A stretch of DNA of 64,000 nucleotides. It comes from Bacteroidia bacterium (GTDB lineage: Bacteria > Bacteroidota > Bacteroidia > SpSt-205). Positions 1,579 through 48,294 of this stretch are shown piece after piece. Location: assembly GCA_026414975.1 (NCBI GenBank), contig JAOAHZ010000004.1, forward strand, positions 124,001 to 188,000, given 5' to 3'. The position numbers and the translations under genes are program-made. Position 1 is the stretch's first letter. Each line of letters begins with the position of its first letter. The notes below the pieces were generated by a model. The model ran no database searches. It saw only the letters and a program-made list of their open reading frames with translations, and was not told the DNA's origin.

Positions 1579-1662
1579 GAGTCAGCCTCGGATATAACGA
1601 AGGAAAGTTGTTATGTGGAAACAGAGTTTTGGATTTGGAGTCCTTCGTTTGCAGCCTCTACC

Positions 1663-1670
1663 TATATTTG
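1663..1670 (+). promoter_or_regulatory. -7 promoter element TATATTTG for the nSTAND/WD40 gene
   Basis: This is an exact match to TAnnTTTG and ends 9 nt before the ATG at 1680. It favours that ATG over the in-frame upstream codon at 1608, which would lie before the promoter. Confidence 0.6.
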
Positions 1671-1679
1671 CCAAAGATT

Positions 1680-4600
1680 ATGCAGATCGCTCCTTCTGTA
1701 GCTACTCCGAAAGAGGAAACGAGAAGCCTATCTATATGGCTCGGGTGGACAGCGGAGGCGGATCGGACGCGTCGTGAAGTGTTGAGCATCATGCTCCGCA
1801 ATGCAGGATATACGGTAGAATTGGCAGCAGAGTACGATCCCCTCCTGCTAGCTCAAGTCAGCCAGCGATATGATGCCGCCTTTCTCATCGTGGGCACGAC
1901 TAAGGGTCCGCTCCTTCCTGATGGTTCGTTGCTATTGAGACGGCAATATGATGTCCTTTTCCAACAGTTGTCGTCTAAGTTTCGGCTGCTTATCTGGGCT
2001 CCCTTAGATGAAACGGCGCTTTACGAGTTAGAGGCCCAAGAGCTTCTTACTCATATAGAGAACTCCCTGACAGACCGAGTTATGCTTACCCGTACCCCCA
2101 GTTTACCTCTCTTAGTGGGGGAGGTTCGAGCTTTCCTCAGCGAAGCCGTAGAAGCCCGTCAAGCAGTCAAGCAGTATGAAATCGGTTTCATTCATAATGT
2201 TCGAGATGCAGATAGCTGCTTTTCGCTGGTAGAGAATCTATCCCAAAGCTATCGCCTAAAATCGCTTACCTTCAAGCCAGAGTCAGCGGAGGAGGATACC
2301 GCTGAAGCATTGCGTATGTACCAGCAAAGTCAGCTTTTGGTCATTTTCTTTCATCGGGCGGGAGATTGGGCGGTCTCGGTAGCTCAGCAAATATGGAAAC
2401 AGTCGGGCGGATTGAGCCGCTCCACACCTATGCTCTTGATTGGTCCGCCAGAACCCTCTCGCAATCGGCATCTTTCTATTCATGTGCCGAATATTCGCTT
2501 AGAGCTTGCCGAAGTAGATAAGATGGAAGGCATGGTAGGTGCTGCCTTGGCGCAAGCCAAACTAACTTCCATATGGCCTGAGTCCCCCCGATTATGCCCT
2601 TATATCGGCTTGCGACCCTTTGAAGAAGCAGAGGCGGTCTTTTTTCATGGGCGAGAACGCCATATCGGCAAGATTTTAGAGCAGCTTCGGGAAAAAAAGT
2701 TCATCATGGTAACGGGGGCCTCTGGGGATGGTAAATCTTCCTTGGTCTTTGCAGGGGTGCTCCCTGCTCTGCGAGCTAACCTGATGTCGGCCCCCTACCC
2801 CAGTTGGGCCATTGCTGCTTTCCGTCCAGAGAAGCAACCCCTCACGAACTTCGCTACGGCGGTTGCCAGCGCTCTCGGGTACAGCGACATTCCAAGTGTA
2901 GAAACTCGCCTCTCATATGGCTTTTCTGCTCTGGTAGAACTGTATAAGGAATCGGCTGTCTTCATAGACCCCACGGACCCTAACTTCCTCCAGCTCTCCG
3001 ATAAAGAGAAATCCGCTCGCCTGCGTGAAGGACAGAACTTGCTCATTCTTGTAGATCAGTTTGAGGAGTTTTTTACCAATGAGGAAAACTACTCCTCAGG
3101 GGTAGCCTCGCCCTTGGCTCAGATTACAGTCAATGTGCTTTCTGAAACCATACGCATTGCCCAGCGTGATAACCTCCCCATTTGGGTCATATTCACCATG
3201 CGTTCCGATTTTATCGGTCAATGCGTAGCCTTCCATGGATTTGCAGAGCTGATAGGCGAGAGCACTTACTTCGTGCCGCGTCTGACCCGAGAGGAGTTTC
3301 AGGCCGTTATAGAGAAGCCCGTAGAGCTGAATGGGGATCGCATTACTCCGAGGCTTACTCAGCGGCTCCTGAACGACTTAGGTGACGGAATAGACCAGCT
3401 CCCAGTTCTTCAGCATGCTCTTCATCGGATATGGCATGCCGCTGATAGCGGGAAAGAAGCCTTAGACCTTATTCACTACGCTATGGTTGGGGGGCTCGGA
3501 GCCAACAAGCTACCCGAGCAGGACCGCCCCCTGTTTGAACAGTATCTGAATAGCCTGCCTCTTGAGGAGAAGGCTCTCTATCAGAGCCCGCGATTGCGAA
3601 ATGTCTTAAACTTTCATGCTGAGTGGTTGTATGAGCACTTGGACAAACTTTACAAGGAAGCCCACGGAGAAGAGCTGCCTTTAGATTTGCTTCAACGAAT
3701 CGCCGCAACCCTCTTCGTTTCTCTCACTCGCATAGATGAAGGAAGGGCTGTGCGAACTCGCTTGACCCTTCAGCAAATAACGGATATCTTAGGGTTGGAG
3801 GGTATCTCAACTCGAGAAGTAGCCAAGGTTGCTGCTCTATTTCGTTTCTCTCAGGTGAGCTTCCTTCAACCTGGATTAGAGGAGGGAGCCTCGTTTGAGC
3901 TCAGTCCTACCGACACTCTCACTATTTCTCACGAGGCGCTTATTCGCAACTGGGACCGACTTATTCGCTGGGCGGAAGCCGAAGCCCAAAGCGTACGCAT
4001 TTTCCGTGAGCTGAAGTTTCAGGTTCAGCGTTGGTTAGAAGCTCAGCAGAACCCCAAACTGCTTCTCAGTGGGGGAGCCTACCAGTATTTTGCTGACTGG
4101 TACTACGAAAAGCGGCCTAATCCCCCGTGGATGCGTCGCTACATTCCCCCTGAGGAACTTGTACCTGATGTAGAGCCCCTCATTCAGGCCTTAGCTTTGC
4201 GTGATGCAATAGAGCTTTACTTAGCCCGCAGTAAAGCCCGGATTGAACGAAACCGTCGCCTTCTCTTACTGGCATTAGGGGTTATTACCTTGCTTCTGAT
4301 GCTCAGCCTTGTAGCCTTGTATTATGCTCAGGTGCAGCGGGTTTTAGCAGAGCGAAGTGCCGAAGAGGCGCGACGTCAAGCCCAAATCGCCCAAGAACAA
4401 CGAGCTTTAGCGGAGAAAAATGCCGCTGAGGCACGCTATCAACAACTCGTGGCTGAACGCGAACGTCTCATAGCCCTCCAGCAGAAACTTTTAGCAGAAA
4501 ATGCTCTCCGCATTGCTCAAGCCGAGCGGCTAAATGCCGAACGGCAGCGTCAAATCGCTGAAACCCAGCGCCGTATCGCTGAGTTAGAGCGTGAGAAGGC

Positions 4601-6194
4601 TCTCACTCAACAGCGCATTGCTGAGAACCAAACTCGTCTCGCTGAGGCTGCTCGTATCAATGCCGAGTATGACCGAGAGCAAGCCGAATACCAAACCCAA
4701 ATAGCCCTTCGCCAGCGGAATCGAGCCCTCATTTTACAATCTCTCTTCTTAGCGGCTCTTTCTCAAGAGCAGACCCGTCAAGGCAATCCCGAGGTGGCCG
4801 CTCGCCTGGCTCTGGAAGCGTTACCTCGGCGTATCGGCGATCCCAACGACCGCCCCTATGTTGAAGAAGCTGAGGCAGCTTTGTACTATGCCCTTCATGC
4901 CTTGCTCTATCCTAAGCCCCCCCGTCAGCTCGTAGGACACCGAAATAGGGTAGTGTATGCTATATTTAGTCCAGACGGTTCTAAACTTGCTACCTCCAGT
5001 TGGGATAAAACGATTCGTATCTGGGATGTCCAAAGCGGAACTTCCAGAGAGGTTCTCAAAGGTCATACCCATATTGTGGAGAAGGTGTATTTTTCCCGTG
5101 ACATTCGCTATCTCGTTTCTCTGGCTGAAGACTTCTCCGCTCGCATCTGGGACCTAAATAAGGGACAAAGTACGGCCCGACTTTGGGGGCATAAAGATGA
5201 TTTGACCCATGTGGCCATCTCGGCAGATGGTAGCGTGATACTCACCACTTCTCTGGACAAAACCGCCCGCTTGTGGAGTGGTCCATCCGGAAATCTCCTG
5301 CAAACCGTATCTTTAGATAGTGAGGGTTTATATGCGGCTATTACAGAAGACGGTAAGCGAGCCGCTATAACTACTCAGCTGGGTAGCTTATACGTGTGGT
5401 TTTCGGGAAGCCAAGCACCGCCTTTGCGCCTTCAAGCTCATGATGGCCCGATTATCGGTGTTCTTCTGTCGCCGGATGAGCGGTATATTCTAACTCTCAG
5501 TGAAGACGGCACCGCTGCTTTATGGAACTGGGAGCTCAAGCTAATCACCCGCCTAAAAGGGCATACGGGCGCTCTCAAGGCTGCTTCTTTCAGCCCTGAT
5601 GGTAAGAAACTCGTGACGGCGGCGGCTGATTCCACTTTGAGGATATGGGAGTTACCTTCAGGCAGGCTTCTCCGCGTGATGACGGAGCACAAGGGGATAC
5701 CTTATGCCGTACAGTGGAGTCCCACCGGATTACATATTCTTTCTATCGGTACGGACCAAACGGCCCGGCTATGGAGCGGACGGAGTTTTCTGTGTCTCAC
5801 TGAATATCCTTTCCCTCTGCATATCTACTTCAAGCCTGCTTTCAGCCCCGAGGGCAAATTTTTAGCTGTGCCTGGACCGAAGGGAACCGTATCACTCTAT
5901 CCCCTCCTGCCTGATCATCAATCGCTTATAGATTACGCTTATGAGAAAAAGCCTCGGGAGCTTACACCGACAGAACGACGGCGATTTTTCTTGGAGGACC
6001 TACGGATTCTTGCTGAACTTCCTTCCAAAAAGAAGCTACCCAAAGCCCGTATCCATGAGGTGCAAGCTGGAGAAACCCTGTCCTCTATTGCTGCTCGATA
6101 TGGTATTTCGGTGGAACAGCTTCGCATGCTCAACCGTCTAAGCTCAGATGCGATTCGGGCAGGCGACAGTTTGATAATCACATACGAAGAGTGA
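1680..6194 (+). CDS. nSTAND1 NTPase with tandem N-terminal alpha/beta domains, TM segment, coiled coil, WD40 propeller and C-terminal LysM
   Basis: A 1,504-residue multidomain protein. Residues about 10-290 form two alpha/beta segments resembling TIR-like or other effector-associated domains (inference). The NTPase starts with CPYIGLRPFEEAEAVFFHGR, a typical nSTAND1 entry, followed by Walker A GASGDGKSS (about 346-354) and Walker B LLILVDQFEEFF (Asp near 459). One strong transmembrane helix lies at about 860-882. A long Ala/Glu/Arg/Gln coiled coil follows (about 885-1015), then seven or eight WD40 repeats with GH and WD signatures (about 1079-1405). The protein ends in a LysM domain (VQAGETLSSIAARYGIS). 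The topology predicts a cytoplasmic NTPase and a periplasmic propeller plus peptidoglycan-binding LysM. STAND proteins usually oligomerise after sensing a ligand. The start at 1680 is chosen because a TATATTTG element lies just upstream. Ligand and output are unknown. Confidence 0.85.
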   Translation: MQIAPSVATPKEETRSLSIWLGWTAEADRTRREVLSIMLRNAGYTVELAAEYDPLLLAQVSQRYDAAFLIVGTTKGPLLPDGSLLLRRQYDVLFQQLSSKFRLLIWAPLDETALYELEAQELLTHIENSLTDRVMLTRTPSLPLLVGEVRAFLSEAVEARQAVKQYEIGFIHNVRDADSCFSLVENLSQSYRLKSLTFKPESAEEDTAEALRMYQQSQLLVIFFHRAGDWAVSVAQQIWKQSGGLSRSTPMLLIGPPEPSRNRHLSIHVPNIRLELAEVDKMEGMVGAALAQAKLTSIWPESPRLCPYIGLRPFEEAEAVFFHGRERHIGKILEQLREKKFIMVTGASGDGKSSLVFAGVLPALRANLMSAPYPSWAIAAFRPEKQPLTNFATAVASALGYSDIPSVETRLSYGFSALVELYKESAVFIDPTDPNFLQLSDKEKSARLREGQNLLILVDQFEEFFTNEENYSSGVASPLAQITVNVLSETIRIAQRDNLPIWVIFTMRSDFIGQCVAFHGFAELIGESTYFVPRLTREEFQAVIEKPVELNGDRITPRLTQRLLNDLGDGIDQLPVLQHALHRIWHAADSGKEALDLIHYAMVGGLGANKLPEQDRPLFEQYLNSLPLEEKALYQSPRLRNVLNFHAEWLYEHLDKLYKEAHGEELPLDLLQRIAATLFVSLTRIDEGRAVRTRLTLQQITDILGLEGISTREVAKVAALFRFSQVSFLQPGLEEGASFELSPTDTLTISHEALIRNWDRLIRWAEAEAQSVRIFRELKFQVQRWLEAQQNPKLLLSGGAYQYFADWYYEKRPNPPWMRRYIPPEELVPDVEPLIQALALRDAIELYLARSKARIERNRRLLLLALGVITLLLMLSLVALYYAQVQRVLAERSAEEARRQAQIAQEQRALAEKNAAEARYQQLVAERERLIALQQKLLAENALRIAQAERLNAERQRQIAETQRRIAELEREKALTQQRIAENQTRLAEAARINAEYDREQAEYQTQIALRQRNRALILQSLFLAALSQEQTRQGNPEVAARLALEALPRRIGDPNDRPYVEEAEAALYYALHALLYPKPPRQLVGHRNRVVYAIFSPDGSKLATSSWDKTIRIWDVQSGTSREVLKGHTHIVEKVYFSRDIRYLVSLAEDFSARIWDLNKGQSTARLWGHKDDLTHVAISADGSVILTTSLDKTARLWSGPSGNLLQTVSLDSEGLYAAITEDGKRAAITTQLGSLYVWFSGSQAPPLRLQAHDGPIIGVLLSPDERYILTLSEDGTAALWNWELKLITRLKGHTGALKAASFSPDGKKLVTAAADSTLRIWELPSGRLLRVMTEHKGIPYAVQWSPTGLHILSIGTDQTARLWSGRSFLCLTEYPFPLHIYFKPAFSPEGKFLAVPGPKGTVSLYPLLPDHQSLIDYAYEKKPRELTPTERRRFFLEDLRILAELPSKKKLPKARIHEVQAGETLSSIAARYGISVEQLRMLNRLSSDAIRAGDSLIITYEE

Positions 6195-44900: not shown

Positions 44901-44904
44901 AATG

Positions 44905-46371
44905 ATGGCGACCCGCAAATCTAAAGCGGAGACCCTTCTACCTACCGACCCAGCAGGGCGAGTGATCCCTCAAGCGTTAGATATTGAGCGGGCTTTACTT
45001 GGTGCCCTCTTGATAGAAAAAGACGCCATAGCCAAAGTTATAGACCTCCTTACCCCAGAGGCCTTTTACGATAAGCGGCATCAACGGATTTTCGCCGCTA
45101 TTCGTTCTCTTTTTGATCAAGGTCTGCCCGTTGATCTGATTGGCGCTCAAGAAGCTCTGCGCCGCAGCGGAGAGATAAAGGATATTGGCCCTTACTACCT
45201 CGCCGAACTAACGCTGGGTGTGGCTTCCAGCGCTAATGCCGAGACATACGCGCGCATCATCGTGGAAAAATACCTCCTGCGCCAGATCATAGCTTTAGCA
45301 GGGGAACTAACTGAAAAAGCCTTCCAAGACGAGGTAGATGCCTTTGAGCTGTTAGATGCAGCGGAGAACCGGCTGTATGAACTATCCCAGCACCACCTAC
45401 GCCGTAGTGTCCAACCAGGCCAGCGCGTACTCCAAGAAGCTTTGGCCCTATTAGAAAAACTGCGCCACAAGAATCAGCCTCTGACCGGCGTACCATCTGG
45501 TTTTGCTGAACTGGATCGCTTAACGGCTGGTTGGCAAAAATCTGATCTCATTATTCTGGCTGCCCGCCCCAGCATGGGTAAAACAGCGTTTGCCCTCAAC
45601 CTTGCTCGGCATGCCGCCATGAGCGGTTATCCTGTGGCGATTTTCTCGCTGGAGATGTCAGCCCTTCAACTAATGTACCGCTTCATTAGCATGGAGATAG
45701 AGATTAGCTCAGAGCTCTTGCGTACAGGCAAAATACCACCTGATTTATGGCTCGTTCTACCTCAAAAGTTGGAGAAACTGATGCAAGCCCCAATTTTCAT
45801 CGATGACACACCTTCGATCACGATTTATGATCTCCGAGCGAAGTGCCGTCGCCTCAAAGCCGAGAAAGACATCCAGCTCGTCATTATAGATTACCTTCAG
45901 CTTATGGGCACGACCCAACGCACCGCTAACCGAGAACAAGAGATTGCCTCCATCTCTCGCTCTCTGAAGGCTTTGGCGCGGGAGTTAGAGGTGCCTATTC
46001 TGGCGCTGTCTCAGCTAAGCCGAGCCGTTGAAACCCGCGGAGGCGACCGCCGCCCTCAACTCTCCGACCTGCGTGAGAGTGGTAGCTTAGAACAGGATGC
46101 GGATGTGGTTCTGTTTCTCTACCGCCCTGAATATTACGGTATCCTCCAAGATGAAGAAGGCCATCCTACCCAAGGTATCACTGAAGTCCTCCTGAGCAAG
46201 CAGCGTAACGGCCCCATCGGTAAAGTGCGTTTGCGATTTATTAGCGACTATATGCGGTTTCTCTCGGTGGAACCCACCCTGATAGCCGGGGATAATGGAG
46301 GCTACACTTTCTCATCCCGAGCGAATGAGCTCCCCCCTCCAGATGAGGAGGACCCTTTTCCCCCCTTCTGA
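44905..46371 (+). CDS. dnaB: Replicative DNA helicase
   Basis: A 488-residue hexameric helicase that unwinds DNA at the replication fork. The N-terminal domain opens IPQALDIERALLGALLIEKD. The RecA core has Walker A LAARPSMGKTAFALNLA (about 218-235), Walker B LVIIDYLQLM, and the late motifs SRSLKALARELEVPILALSQ and LRESGSLEQDADVVLFLYRP. No intein is present. Two tandem ATG codons are possible; 44905 is preferred from promoter spacing, and 44902 would add one Met. Confidence 0.96.
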   Translation: MATRKSKAETLLPTDPAGRVIPQALDIERALLGALLIEKDAIAKVIDLLTPEAFYDKRHQRIFAAIRSLFDQGLPVDLIGAQEALRRSGEIKDIGPYYLAELTLGVASSANAETYARIIVEKYLLRQIIALAGELTEKAFQDEVDAFELLDAAENRLYELSQHHLRRSVQPGQRVLQEALALLEKLRHKNQPLTGVPSGFAELDRLTAGWQKSDLIILAARPSMGKTAFALNLARHAAMSGYPVAIFSLEMSALQLMYRFISMEIEISSELLRTGKIPPDLWLVLPQKLEKLMQAPIFIDDTPSITIYDLRAKCRRLKAEKDIQLVIIDYLQLMGTTQRTANREQEIASISRSLKALARELEVPILALSQLSRAVETRGGDRRPQLSDLRESGSLEQDADVVLFLYRPEYYGILQDEEGHPTQGITEVLLSKQRNGPIGKVRLRFISDYMRFLSVEPTLIAGDNGGYTFSSRANELPPPDEEDPFPPF

Positions 46372-46449: not shown

Positions 46450-48294
46450 ATGAGCCGAGGTAAATCGCAACTCTTCTTGGGAACTTGTCTGCTCATGCAG
46501 GCGAGCTACTCCCAACCCTATAAGGATTTAGAGGTCCAGAGTGGGGCGACTTATGCCTTAGCCTTCACCTCAGACTCTCGCTATCTCCTGTCGGCTGGGA
46601 GTGACAGACTGGTGCGTCTGTGGCATATGCCACATGGGACGCTTTTGGCGCGATTCGGGGGAGCCTCTGCAAGCGTTAATGCTTTGGCTCTTTTACCAGA
46701 CAGCGTTGGAACTTTCTGGGGCGCTTCCAGCGATGGAAAGGTCTACCAGTGGAGACTGACCGATTATCGCAAGGCAGGCGGATCGGTTCTCAAGCCCCAA
46801 CGAGCCGAAGCTCTGGCAAGACGAGTGACCAAGTCAGGTCCCCTGCAACCTTGGGAAGCTATAGCTGTTCATCCCACGCGTCCTATCGTGTATGTCGTTG
46901 GTAGAGAAGGCCTCTTGGTCGGATGGGATTCGGAAGAAGGATGGCTACAAACGCTTCAAGACTCGGCTCGAGTAGCTTATTCTCTGCTATTTGCCTCTCA
47001 CGGCAAAGCCTTGTATATGGGAAGTGGCTCTGGAGCCCTCTTAGTCATAGATCCCTCTACCCTATCCGTACAGAGAACCCTCCGAGGGCATACTAAGGGC
47101 ATCCGAGGCTTAGCCATCAGCCCTGATCAACGCTACTTGGCTACCGCTGGCTTAGATGGTAAAGTCATGCTATGGAACTTAGCGGAAGGCCTACGCACTA
47201 AGACTTTGGAAAAACATTCAGATGGGGTGAGAGCAGTGGCTTTCAGCCCGGACGGACGCTATCTCGCCAGCGCAGGCAAAGACGGGCTATTATGCATTTG
47301 GGCCCTTCCTACTGGGCGATTGGAGAAGGCTATTTCCCTTGAATCACCTCTCTGGACGATAGCTTTCAGCCCTAATGGTCAGTACCTGGTAGCGGGGGGA
47401 GAGGGGGGATTGCTCCGTTTATGGCGCATAGACCAACTGGGCATCAGGCCTATCCAAATCATCGCCGAGACCGACTCTCTTTACGCTCCACCCACAGACC
47501 TACAAGACAACATCCCTCAGTGCCGTTCTACCCAACCCCAGCGGTACGCTTACATCGTCGGCAATGAAGATTACCGTAGCTATCAACCCACTTTTACCCC
47601 AGCGATGAATGTACCGTATGCGATCCGGGACGCCTACACCTTTCGGGTATATGCGGAACAGGTTCTCGGCATTCCCCCCTTGAATATCGTCTTTCTCCAA
47701 AATGCTACCGCCGCTCAAATGCAGCGTGAGTTAGAGAAGCTTCTTTTGCTCATTGCAGCGGCTCGCGGAAAAGCTGAAATCTTCTTCTACTACGCTGGAC
47801 ACGGCGTACCTCATCCCCAGACTCAGGAGAGTTACCTTTTACCTGTGGATGCTGCTCCGACGGCTCCAGAGAGGGGGGGACTTCGTCTAACCGATGTCGT
47901 GCAGAAATTAGGAAACAGTGGTGCAGGAAAGGTGTGGATCATCTTAGACGCCTGCTTCAGTGGAGGAGCTCGGGAGGAGAGTCCACTCGCCGCTCGCGGA
48001 ATCCGCCTCCGCCCTAAGCCGGTCGTGCTCACGGGGCCTGTGATACTGATTTCGGCTACGTCGGCCGATGAGGAGGCCTTGCCTTATCACCAAGCTCGCC
48101 ATGGACTTTTCACTTACTTTCTCCTGAGAGCCCTCAAACTCAAAGGATGTCAAGAGGTGTCCGTGGAAACTCTCTTAGAAGAAGCAGCCGCCGAAACTAC
48201 CCGTTATAGCCTTCTTCTCCATCAAAAACTTCAGCGTCCCACCTGGATCGTAAGTCCAGCGCTGACCGACAAAGTCCTAAGTAGCCCATGGTGA
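46450..48294 (+). CDS. Secreted WD40-repeat caspase-like protease (peptidase C14)
   Basis: A 614-residue protein with a probable Sec signal (MSRGKSQLFLGTCLLMQASYS), about seven WD40 repeats (about 30-330; clearest are SPDQRYLATAGLDGKVMLWN and SPDGRYLASAGKDGLLCIWA), then a caspase-fold domain (about 364-610). The catalytic dyad is His in FFYYAGHGVP (about 451) and Cys in ILDACFSGGA (about 502). Such metacaspase-like enzymes normally cleave after Arg or Lys. The propeller could be a sensing or substrate-binding lid. No clear promoter precedes it. Extracytoplasmic location is inferred from the signal peptide. Confidence 0.88.
   Translation: MSRGKSQLFLGTCLLMQASYSQPYKDLEVQSGATYALAFTSDSRYLLSAGSDRLVRLWHMPHGTLLARFGGASASVNALALLPDSVGTFWGASSDGKVYQWRLTDYRKAGGSVLKPQRAEALARRVTKSGPLQPWEAIAVHPTRPIVYVVGREGLLVGWDSEEGWLQTLQDSARVAYSLLFASHGKALYMGSGSGALLVIDPSTLSVQRTLRGHTKGIRGLAISPDQRYLATAGLDGKVMLWNLAEGLRTKTLEKHSDGVRAVAFSPDGRYLASAGKDGLLCIWALPTGRLEKAISLESPLWTIAFSPNGQYLVAGGEGGLLRLWRIDQLGIRPIQIIAETDSLYAPPTDLQDNIPQCRSTQPQRYAYIVGNEDYRSYQPTFTPAMNVPYAIRDAYTFRVYAEQVLGIPPLNIVFLQNATAAQMQRELEKLLLLIAAARGKAEIFFYYAGHGVPHPQTQESYLLPVDAAPTAPERGGLRLTDVVQKLGNSGAGKVWIILDACFSGGAREESPLAARGIRLRPKPVVLTGPVILISATSADEEALPYHQARHGLFTYFLLRALKLKGCQEVSVETLLEEAAAETTRYSLLLHQKLQRPTWIVSPALTDKVLSSPW

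Follow-up and report, generated by a model that had tools for sequence, protein, structure and literature searches.

A predicted exported WD40-caspase and its putative partner proteins A and B in a Bacteroidia genus

The 64,000-nucleotide stretch of Bacteroidia DNA analysed here (the window) encodes a protein in which a WD40 propeller precedes a caspase-fold domain. We lean towards reading it as a C14-family cysteine protease that is exported, probably to the periplasm, is predicted to cleave after Arg or Lys, and works together with two further predicted exported proteins, here called A and B. This reading builds on the computed architecture, catalytic dyad, fold and export-type N-terminus of the protein, on its genetic partnership with B and A, and on the absence of a TIGR04183 tail. 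Bacterial caspase homologues are usually taken as intracellular death or defence proteins. If the reading is true, an exported subfamily present in 44 of 395 genomes of the class, many of them with exported partners, would use caspase chemistry for envelope housekeeping or signalling, with B as a concrete candidate substrate or regulator. The conserved exported module, which is invisible in the window itself, points to an envelope protease team rather than a lone oddity.

Domain architecture and the export-type N-terminus

The open reading frame named in the original prediction (46450-48294) was found at that place, encodes 614 residues and begins with an ATG five codons past an upstream in-frame stop (Table 1). 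The protein starts with a predicted signal peptide; a WD40 propeller of seven blades follows, and the C-terminal part is a C14 caspase-fold domain that contains His451 and Cys502. In a Pfam scan, PF00656 (Peptidase_C14) matches residues 365-605 with 64.4 bits (gathering cut-off 21.4), and WD40 reaches 135.7 bits (cut-off 27). A full-length AlphaFold2 model built from 12 sequences has a mean pLDDT of 81.2 and a pTM of 0.54, and because of the latter value the mutual arrangement of the propeller and the C14 domain is not predicted. The order of strands in the model gives six four-stranded blades and a seventh that is apparently completed by residues 24-26, and for the whole model Foldseek ranks 7big, a designed propeller with seven blades, first (TM 0.91 by target). 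As modelled, then, the window protein contains a closed seven-bladed WD40 beta-propeller, and the seven-repeat propeller that had been claimed ahead of the protease is borne out by the Pfam score, the strand order and the 7big match alike. The best 50 PDB matches listed for the whole model are all propeller proteins or complexes, and the caspase domain was therefore folded separately.

Table 1. Features of the WD40-caspase gene and its upstream neighbour, in window coordinates
Feature	Position	Strand	Remarks
dnaB	44902..46371	+	78 bp upstream of the WD40-caspase gene; probably not the ancestral neighbour
WD40-caspase gene	46450..48294	+	614 aa + stop
Predicted signal peptide	46450..46512	+	residues 1-21, cleavage between SYS and QPYK; home-made rule and Q-rule
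Seven-bladed WD40 propeller	46519..47442	+	residues 24-331; ring probably closed by residues 24-26
Linker	47443..47538	+	residues 332-363; partly low model confidence (334-348 pLDDT <50)
Caspase-fold domain	47539..48291	+	residues 364-614; PF00656, domain model, Foldseek, VIA
Asp394, invariant	47629..47631	+	aligns with MALT1 S1-pocket Asp
His451, catalytic dyad	47800..47802	+	in YYAGHG
Asp500, invariant	47947..47949	+	two residues ahead of Cys502; aligns with MALT1 S1-pocket Asp
Cys502, catalytic dyad	47953..47955	+	in LDACFSGG
Arg-rich loop past the catalytic Cys	47959..48018	+	SGGAREESPLAARGIRLRPK; candidate autoprocessing site

Signal peptides were called with a home-made rule that considers a hydrophobic stretch and the residues at -3 and -1 and gives a bonus for Gln at +1. 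At the annotated start of the window protein the rule places the cut between MQASYS and QPYKDL with a score of 3.42, the lowest among the called genus orthologues. Ten of the 11 genus orthologues (the window's included) are called; the one that is missed, L020, has a Trp-rich segment that likewise ends in Ala before QPYK. As a control, none of 13 cytoplasmic-type window proteins was called, even when alternative starts were scanned as for the orthologues. Gln occupies the predicted +1 position in 11/11 orthologues and all of them share QPYK[DE]L as the mature start, a conservation that would follow from residues 24-26 completing the last blade right after the cleavage site. The Bacteroidetes Q-rule, as given in the part of its source available to us, places Gln at +1 of signal peptidase I substrates (PMC5837995), and the window protein fits a Sec/SPI-exported Bacteroidota protein of this type, its export being predicted from sequence. 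The signal peptide and export that had been proposed are in keeping with both our rule and the shared Gln; lack of a cleavable signal peptide, which would have spoken against the proposal, was looked for, and the home-made rule, the only one applied, predicts such a peptide.

TIGR04183, the C-terminal sorting domain of T9SS cargo, is absent from the WD40-caspase, and since the genome has 40 matches to it elsewhere, the periplasm is the likeliest location that we can infer for the protein. T9SS cargo, of the TIGR04183 type only, was rejected on the lack of this tail. A lipoprotein was likewise rejected, here by eye: Cys13 (FLGTC) stands without a proper lipobox and too early in the sequence. 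The 40 matches also indicate that the lineage probably has a working T9SS.

The caspase-fold domain and its predicted specificity

Modelled alone, the C14 domain reaches a pLDDT of 79.0 and a pTM of 0.83. Its top Foldseek match is human MALT1 (3v4o; E 1.0e-11), and VIA superimposes it on metacaspase-4 (6w8s; Z 21.0, rmsd 2.9, 210 aligned) and on MALT1 (7ak1; Z 18.9, rmsd 2.9, 194 aligned). With regard to a p10 domain, which sets metacaspases apart from orthocaspases, the model aligns along the length of two-subunit caspase structures, as judged by structural alignment only. By Pfam score, dyad and fold, the window protein belongs to peptidase family C14.

The intact dyad that had been claimed, a His near residue 451 and a Cys near residue 502, is present at exactly these residues, and a search for its loss in homologues found the His and Cys motifs kept in 11/11 genus orthologues. 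In alignment A1, which holds 12 sequences (five relatives at 35-36% identity and six other rows of close relatives at 67-79%), His451, Cys502, Asp394 and Asp500 are invariant, down to 35% identity. MALT1 is an Arg-specific protease whose S1-pocket acids we take to be D365, D462 and E500, with Asp394 and Asp500 as the counterparts of the first two. At the sequence level, two conserved Asp (D394, D500) make for an acidic S1 pocket, and their alignment with two of the MALT1 acids leads us to predict Arg/Lys specificity; the third, E500, has no clear counterpart in the alignment of the window protein with MALT1. Past the catalytic Cys, residues 504-518 have a pLDDT <50 in the AlphaFold2 model, and within the Arg-rich loop all 12 aligned sequences share R508, R516, G517, P522 and K523.

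In 5/5 pairs compared, dN is lower for the caspase domain (0.10-0.20) than for the propeller (0.15-0.30), the former thus evolving more slowly; dS is saturated, and hence the pairwise rates are given as dN only, with no dN/dS ratio. These rates, together with the invariance of the dyad and both S1 Asp over the 12 sequences, argue against a non-proteolytic scaffold in which the propeller does the work and the caspase fold is structural. That idea draws on the protease activity being a prediction, and on the N-terminal regions of six related subfamily caspases that were scanned, of which three carry CARDB, one of these PEGA as well, and the other three have unassigned regions; such variety suggests that modular binding matters. 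We nevertheless rate the scaffold as very improbable, and the least probable of the accounts considered here.

Proteins A and B as neighbours and genomic partners

That the surrounding genes give no explanation, as the original prediction had it, stands for the window itself and falls across the genus, where 8 of 11 congeners (G001-G003, G005-G009) place the caspase gene directly after those for A and B, with the B match at most 115 bp from the caspase match. Protein A (~220 aa) and protein B (~290 aa) both have export-type N-termini by eye, and B consists of an N-terminal part and a DUF4384-like domain. Both are found in 11/11 genus genomes, the A of G001 being cut by a contig end, and the frames of A, B and the caspase overlap or almost touch in the loci read. 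In the window's own genome (G000; an assembly of 2.2 Mb in 58 contigs, with the window on contig C34), B lies 52 kb from the caspase gene and outside the window (C34:117307-118164); B and A together occupy C34:117307-118796 on the minus strand, beside a gene that by eye is purE-like. In G004 and G010, B is on a different contig from the caspase gene. The gene order is purE-like (again by eye), A, B, caspase in G002, and purE-like, A, B without the caspase in G000.

The caspase gene sits behind dnaB in G000 and G004, an arrangement otherwise not seen among the congeners. A dnaB operon was rejected as an explanation, as the caspase does not follow dnaB in G003, G005, G006, G007, G009 and G010, the six congeners with flanks in this comparison (G002 gave no dnaB match, and the matches of G001 and G008 are contig-end or partial). 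The tree joins G000 with G004 (91/86), then G002 (99/96) and then G010 (100/99), its deep joins resting on long branches and being unsure. Read by parsimony, the ancestor of the genus had the caspase next to A-B, this adjacency has been lost about twice within the genus, and the absence of meaningful neighbours in the window is a local accident. Co-transcription of caspase and B is not obligatory, since the two are not neighbours in G000, G004, G010 and G551.

One might instead suppose that in G000 the caspase gene has drifted out of the module and now acts alone or with dnaB: it lies 78 bp downstream of dnaB, is also found behind dnaB in G004, and is 52 kb away from B. However, G000, G004 and G010 all retain open reading frames for A and B, the caspase frame and dyad are intact in the separated copies of these three genomes (for which dS is saturated), and nothing evident ties dnaB functionally to an exported protease. 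We hold such drift to be very unlikely.

Profile searches of Pfam, NCBIfam and PDB returned nothing credible for protein A, and a label as LPP20/FlgT-like, given by eye, was dropped when they lent it no support. The protein B profile matched no PDB chain. A basic linker in B was considered as a cleavage site and given no weight, being missing by eye from more distant B-like proteins.

The partnership extends beyond the genus. Across the 395 class genomes we searched with a C14-domain profile (A2; threshold E 1e-20), which finds the caspase subfamily in 44 of them, and with a B profile (A5; threshold E 1e-10). B is found in 27 genomes, every one among those 44, the other 17 having no B match, and in 23 of the 27 it lies within 3 kb of the caspase match (the exceptions are G000, G004, G010 and G551). 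Counted by genus, B is present in 13 genera, all falling within the 28 of 197 that have the caspase subfamily; the hypergeometric value of 5e-13 is indicative only, since related lineages are counted and the seeds of the B profile came from caspase neighbourhoods, which favours detection there, also in the genome-wide search. A, B and a WD40-caspase adjoin in the same-order genome G012 and in G383 and G497, two genomes of another family. A B-like neighbour is found at 13 of 19 caspase-subfamily loci versus 1 of 90 survey loci, a count that is largely circular in that 11 of the 13 are profile seeds and only L208 and L212 are independent, and the genome-wide A5 search is the better test. The fetched stretches of the other six subfamily loci (L201, L203, L205, L206, L213, L214) contain no B-like gene; that of L203 ends shortly before a DUF4384 match, and for L205 and L213 a B is present elsewhere in the genome. 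The A and B profiles gave no match in the Bacteroidales/Bacteroidia loci L008-L012.

The restriction of B to genomes with the caspase subfamily (27/27) suggests a dedicated partner and not bulk digestion, and so bears on a gingipain-like role, that of a digestive protease, secreted or on the cell surface, with substrates outside the cell. The export signal, the predicted Arg/Lys preference and the T9SS cargo set of the genome would all suit such a protease, but the WD40-caspase itself lacks the sorting tail, and we regard the role as distinctly unlikely.

Against DUF4384 (PF14326, cut-off 27), B of G000 scores 24.4 bits in hmmscan and 27.1 with neighbours in the genome search, and two other genus B proteins score 18.7 and 25.7 bits. 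The B-like neighbours of the related caspases L199 and L204 lie above the cut-off, with 48.2 and 38.1 bits. Only one DUF4384 match in G000 reaches the cut-off, narrowly, and that match is B. The domain is not specific to the A-B-caspase system, with 62 of the 395 genomes having one, often in longer proteins. DUF4384 also occurs in caspase homologues of Alphaproteobacteria (PMC6426788) and, with 23 entries, among the accessory domains of cyanobacterial ones (PMC8283722), according to the parts of these papers available to us; these are independent hints that DUF4384 and caspase act together. An exported caspase whose DUF4384 partner is a protein of its own was not found in the literature searched, which has most subscription journals outside its coverage, and the A-B-caspase module, likewise not found there, is the new element. 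One related locus (L204; G348:C44, 1-9062) packs into 9 kb three C14 genes together with two related cl2 genes and a partner of the DUF4384 type, a possible local expansion of the module.

Distribution, proposed role and comparison with known systems

The window's assembly has one C14 match, each of the 11 genus genomes has one subfamily match, and two-domain orthologues (66-80% identity) occur in 10/10 other genus genomes searched. The single same-family genome (66% complete) gave a weak match only (3.6e-4), and in the single same-order genome the copy runs off its contig; the closest relatives with a name that the search found are MAGs labelled 'Bacteroidia bacterium'. Four Bacteroidales loci have the full architecture, with 31% identity in the best segment and 35% over the alignment. 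In the phylum sample, C14 genes occur in at least 90 of 247 genomes, a lower bound since the tally shows 0 for the window's own genome, where another search found one. The phylum survey covered 90 loci, 30 ranked by score and 60 hand-picked from the listed matches, mostly for long frames, and is biased to fusions; within this set, 17 of 110 caspase ORFs have an N-terminal WD40 region. Fourteen of these 17 fusions carry an export signal by our rule (L127, L133 and L134 do not) and 13 have Gln at +1, and the dyad motifs are present in all 17, 15 by pattern and two by eye (L138 and L141, with GHG and DAC). Among the accessory domains of prokaryotic caspase homologues, WD40 ranks first as well (73/671; PMC3501461), and a table of 473 cyanobacterial homologues lists it with 83 entries (PMC8283722), in the portions of both surveys at hand. 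The exported WD40-caspase had been presented as an unusual combination; given its recurrence in the Bacteroidota survey and the place of WD40 in the published ones, it is less so, and WD40-C14 with an export signal is a known kind of architecture.

Two further observations concern WD40 proteins. A second Bacteroidia architecture (L035, L039, L041) runs from signal peptide through WD40 and a long middle region to the caspase, and the genomes G019 and G027, from which L035 and L041 come, have no A2 match at 1e-20. The window itself also encodes, at 1608-6194 on the plus strand, a 1528-aa nSTAND1 NTPase with WD40 repeats and an oddly C-terminal LysM, the first 330 residues of which match no Pfam family; frames of ~1500 aa with WD40 matches occur in several congeners as well.

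The claim that the protein fits no known defence operon agrees with our search of PADLOC-DB 2.0.0, in which seven flanking proteins, A and B gave no convincing match (best 18.9 bits, for dnaB), and a defence island is rejected for now on the flanking genes. The suggested link to immunity or programmed death, by comparison, has no positive support, in view of the lack of a convincing PADLOC match, the single subfamily match in every genus genome and the predicted extracytoplasmic location. A programmed-death, fratricide or anti-phage effector would be a triggered caspase that kills its own cell or a neighbour, as the family resemblance to caspases and a score of 48.9 bits for the WD40-caspase with the generic PADLOC 'caspase' model might suggest; for extracellular localisation, the available part of one survey discusses surface PCD or fratricide as possible (PMC3501461). 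Yet the gene is in 11/11 congeners, unlike patchy defence genes, none of its neighbours, A or B belongs convincingly to a PADLOC family, and an exported protease would not directly act on a cytoplasmic phage stage. We think an effector of this kind quite improbable.

On the reading that we prefer, that of an envelope protease working with B and A, the WD40-caspase would be made with a Sec signal peptide and cleaved by signal peptidase I, exposing Gln22, which would probably be cyclised. The new N-terminus would add the strand that completes the seven-bladed ring. The propeller may dock onto or sense a partner or ligand, the protease staying inactive until the propeller binds something, and the disordered Arg-rich loop after Cys502 may keep the C14 domain as a zymogen. 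Cleavage within this loop would activate the domain, which would then process a protein of the envelope; the first candidate substrate or regulator is B, and the protease would act on the envelope jointly with B and A. More speculatively, these steps could belong to an undescribed signalling cascade at the Bacteroidota envelope, a proteolytic relay that uses caspase chemistry beyond the cytoplasm and is unrelated to cell death, in which interchangeable exported N-terminal domains (WD40 here; CARDB, PEGA or unassigned regions in relatives) trigger a periplasmic caspase via Arg-rich-loop cleavage and the DUF4384 partner B is cut or released as the signal, an extension that we consider rather unlikely.

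Like the WD40 types among prokaryotic caspase homologues (orthocaspases/metacaspases; C14, PF00656), the window protein combines an HC dyad with WD40 repeats, and it differs from them in having an export signal that is predicted to be cleavable and a propeller on the N-terminal side. The accessory domains of cyanobacterial homologues mostly lie on the C-terminal side of C14, as far as the consulted part of the source extends (PMC8283722). The EACC1-associated caspases (NF047832) provide the sole NCBIfam model matched, at 68 bits and far under its cut-off of 140. Human MALT1 paracaspase is the best Foldseek match (3v4o), with the dyad and two S1 Asp aligning; MALT1, however, is intracellular, several of its solved constructs carry an Ig domain where the window protein has a propeller, and no evidence suggests a shared pathway. 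The DUF4384-carrying caspase homologues of Alphaproteobacteria and Cyanobacteria resemble the present system in that DUF4384 is tied to a C14-type p20 domain (PMC6426788, PMC8283722, both in part). There the association is within one protein, the alphaproteobacterial ones having a QC pseudo-dyad and a trypsin-like domain (PMC6426788, in the same part), whereas here the DUF4384-like B is a separate, predicted exported protein beside a caspase with an intact dyad.
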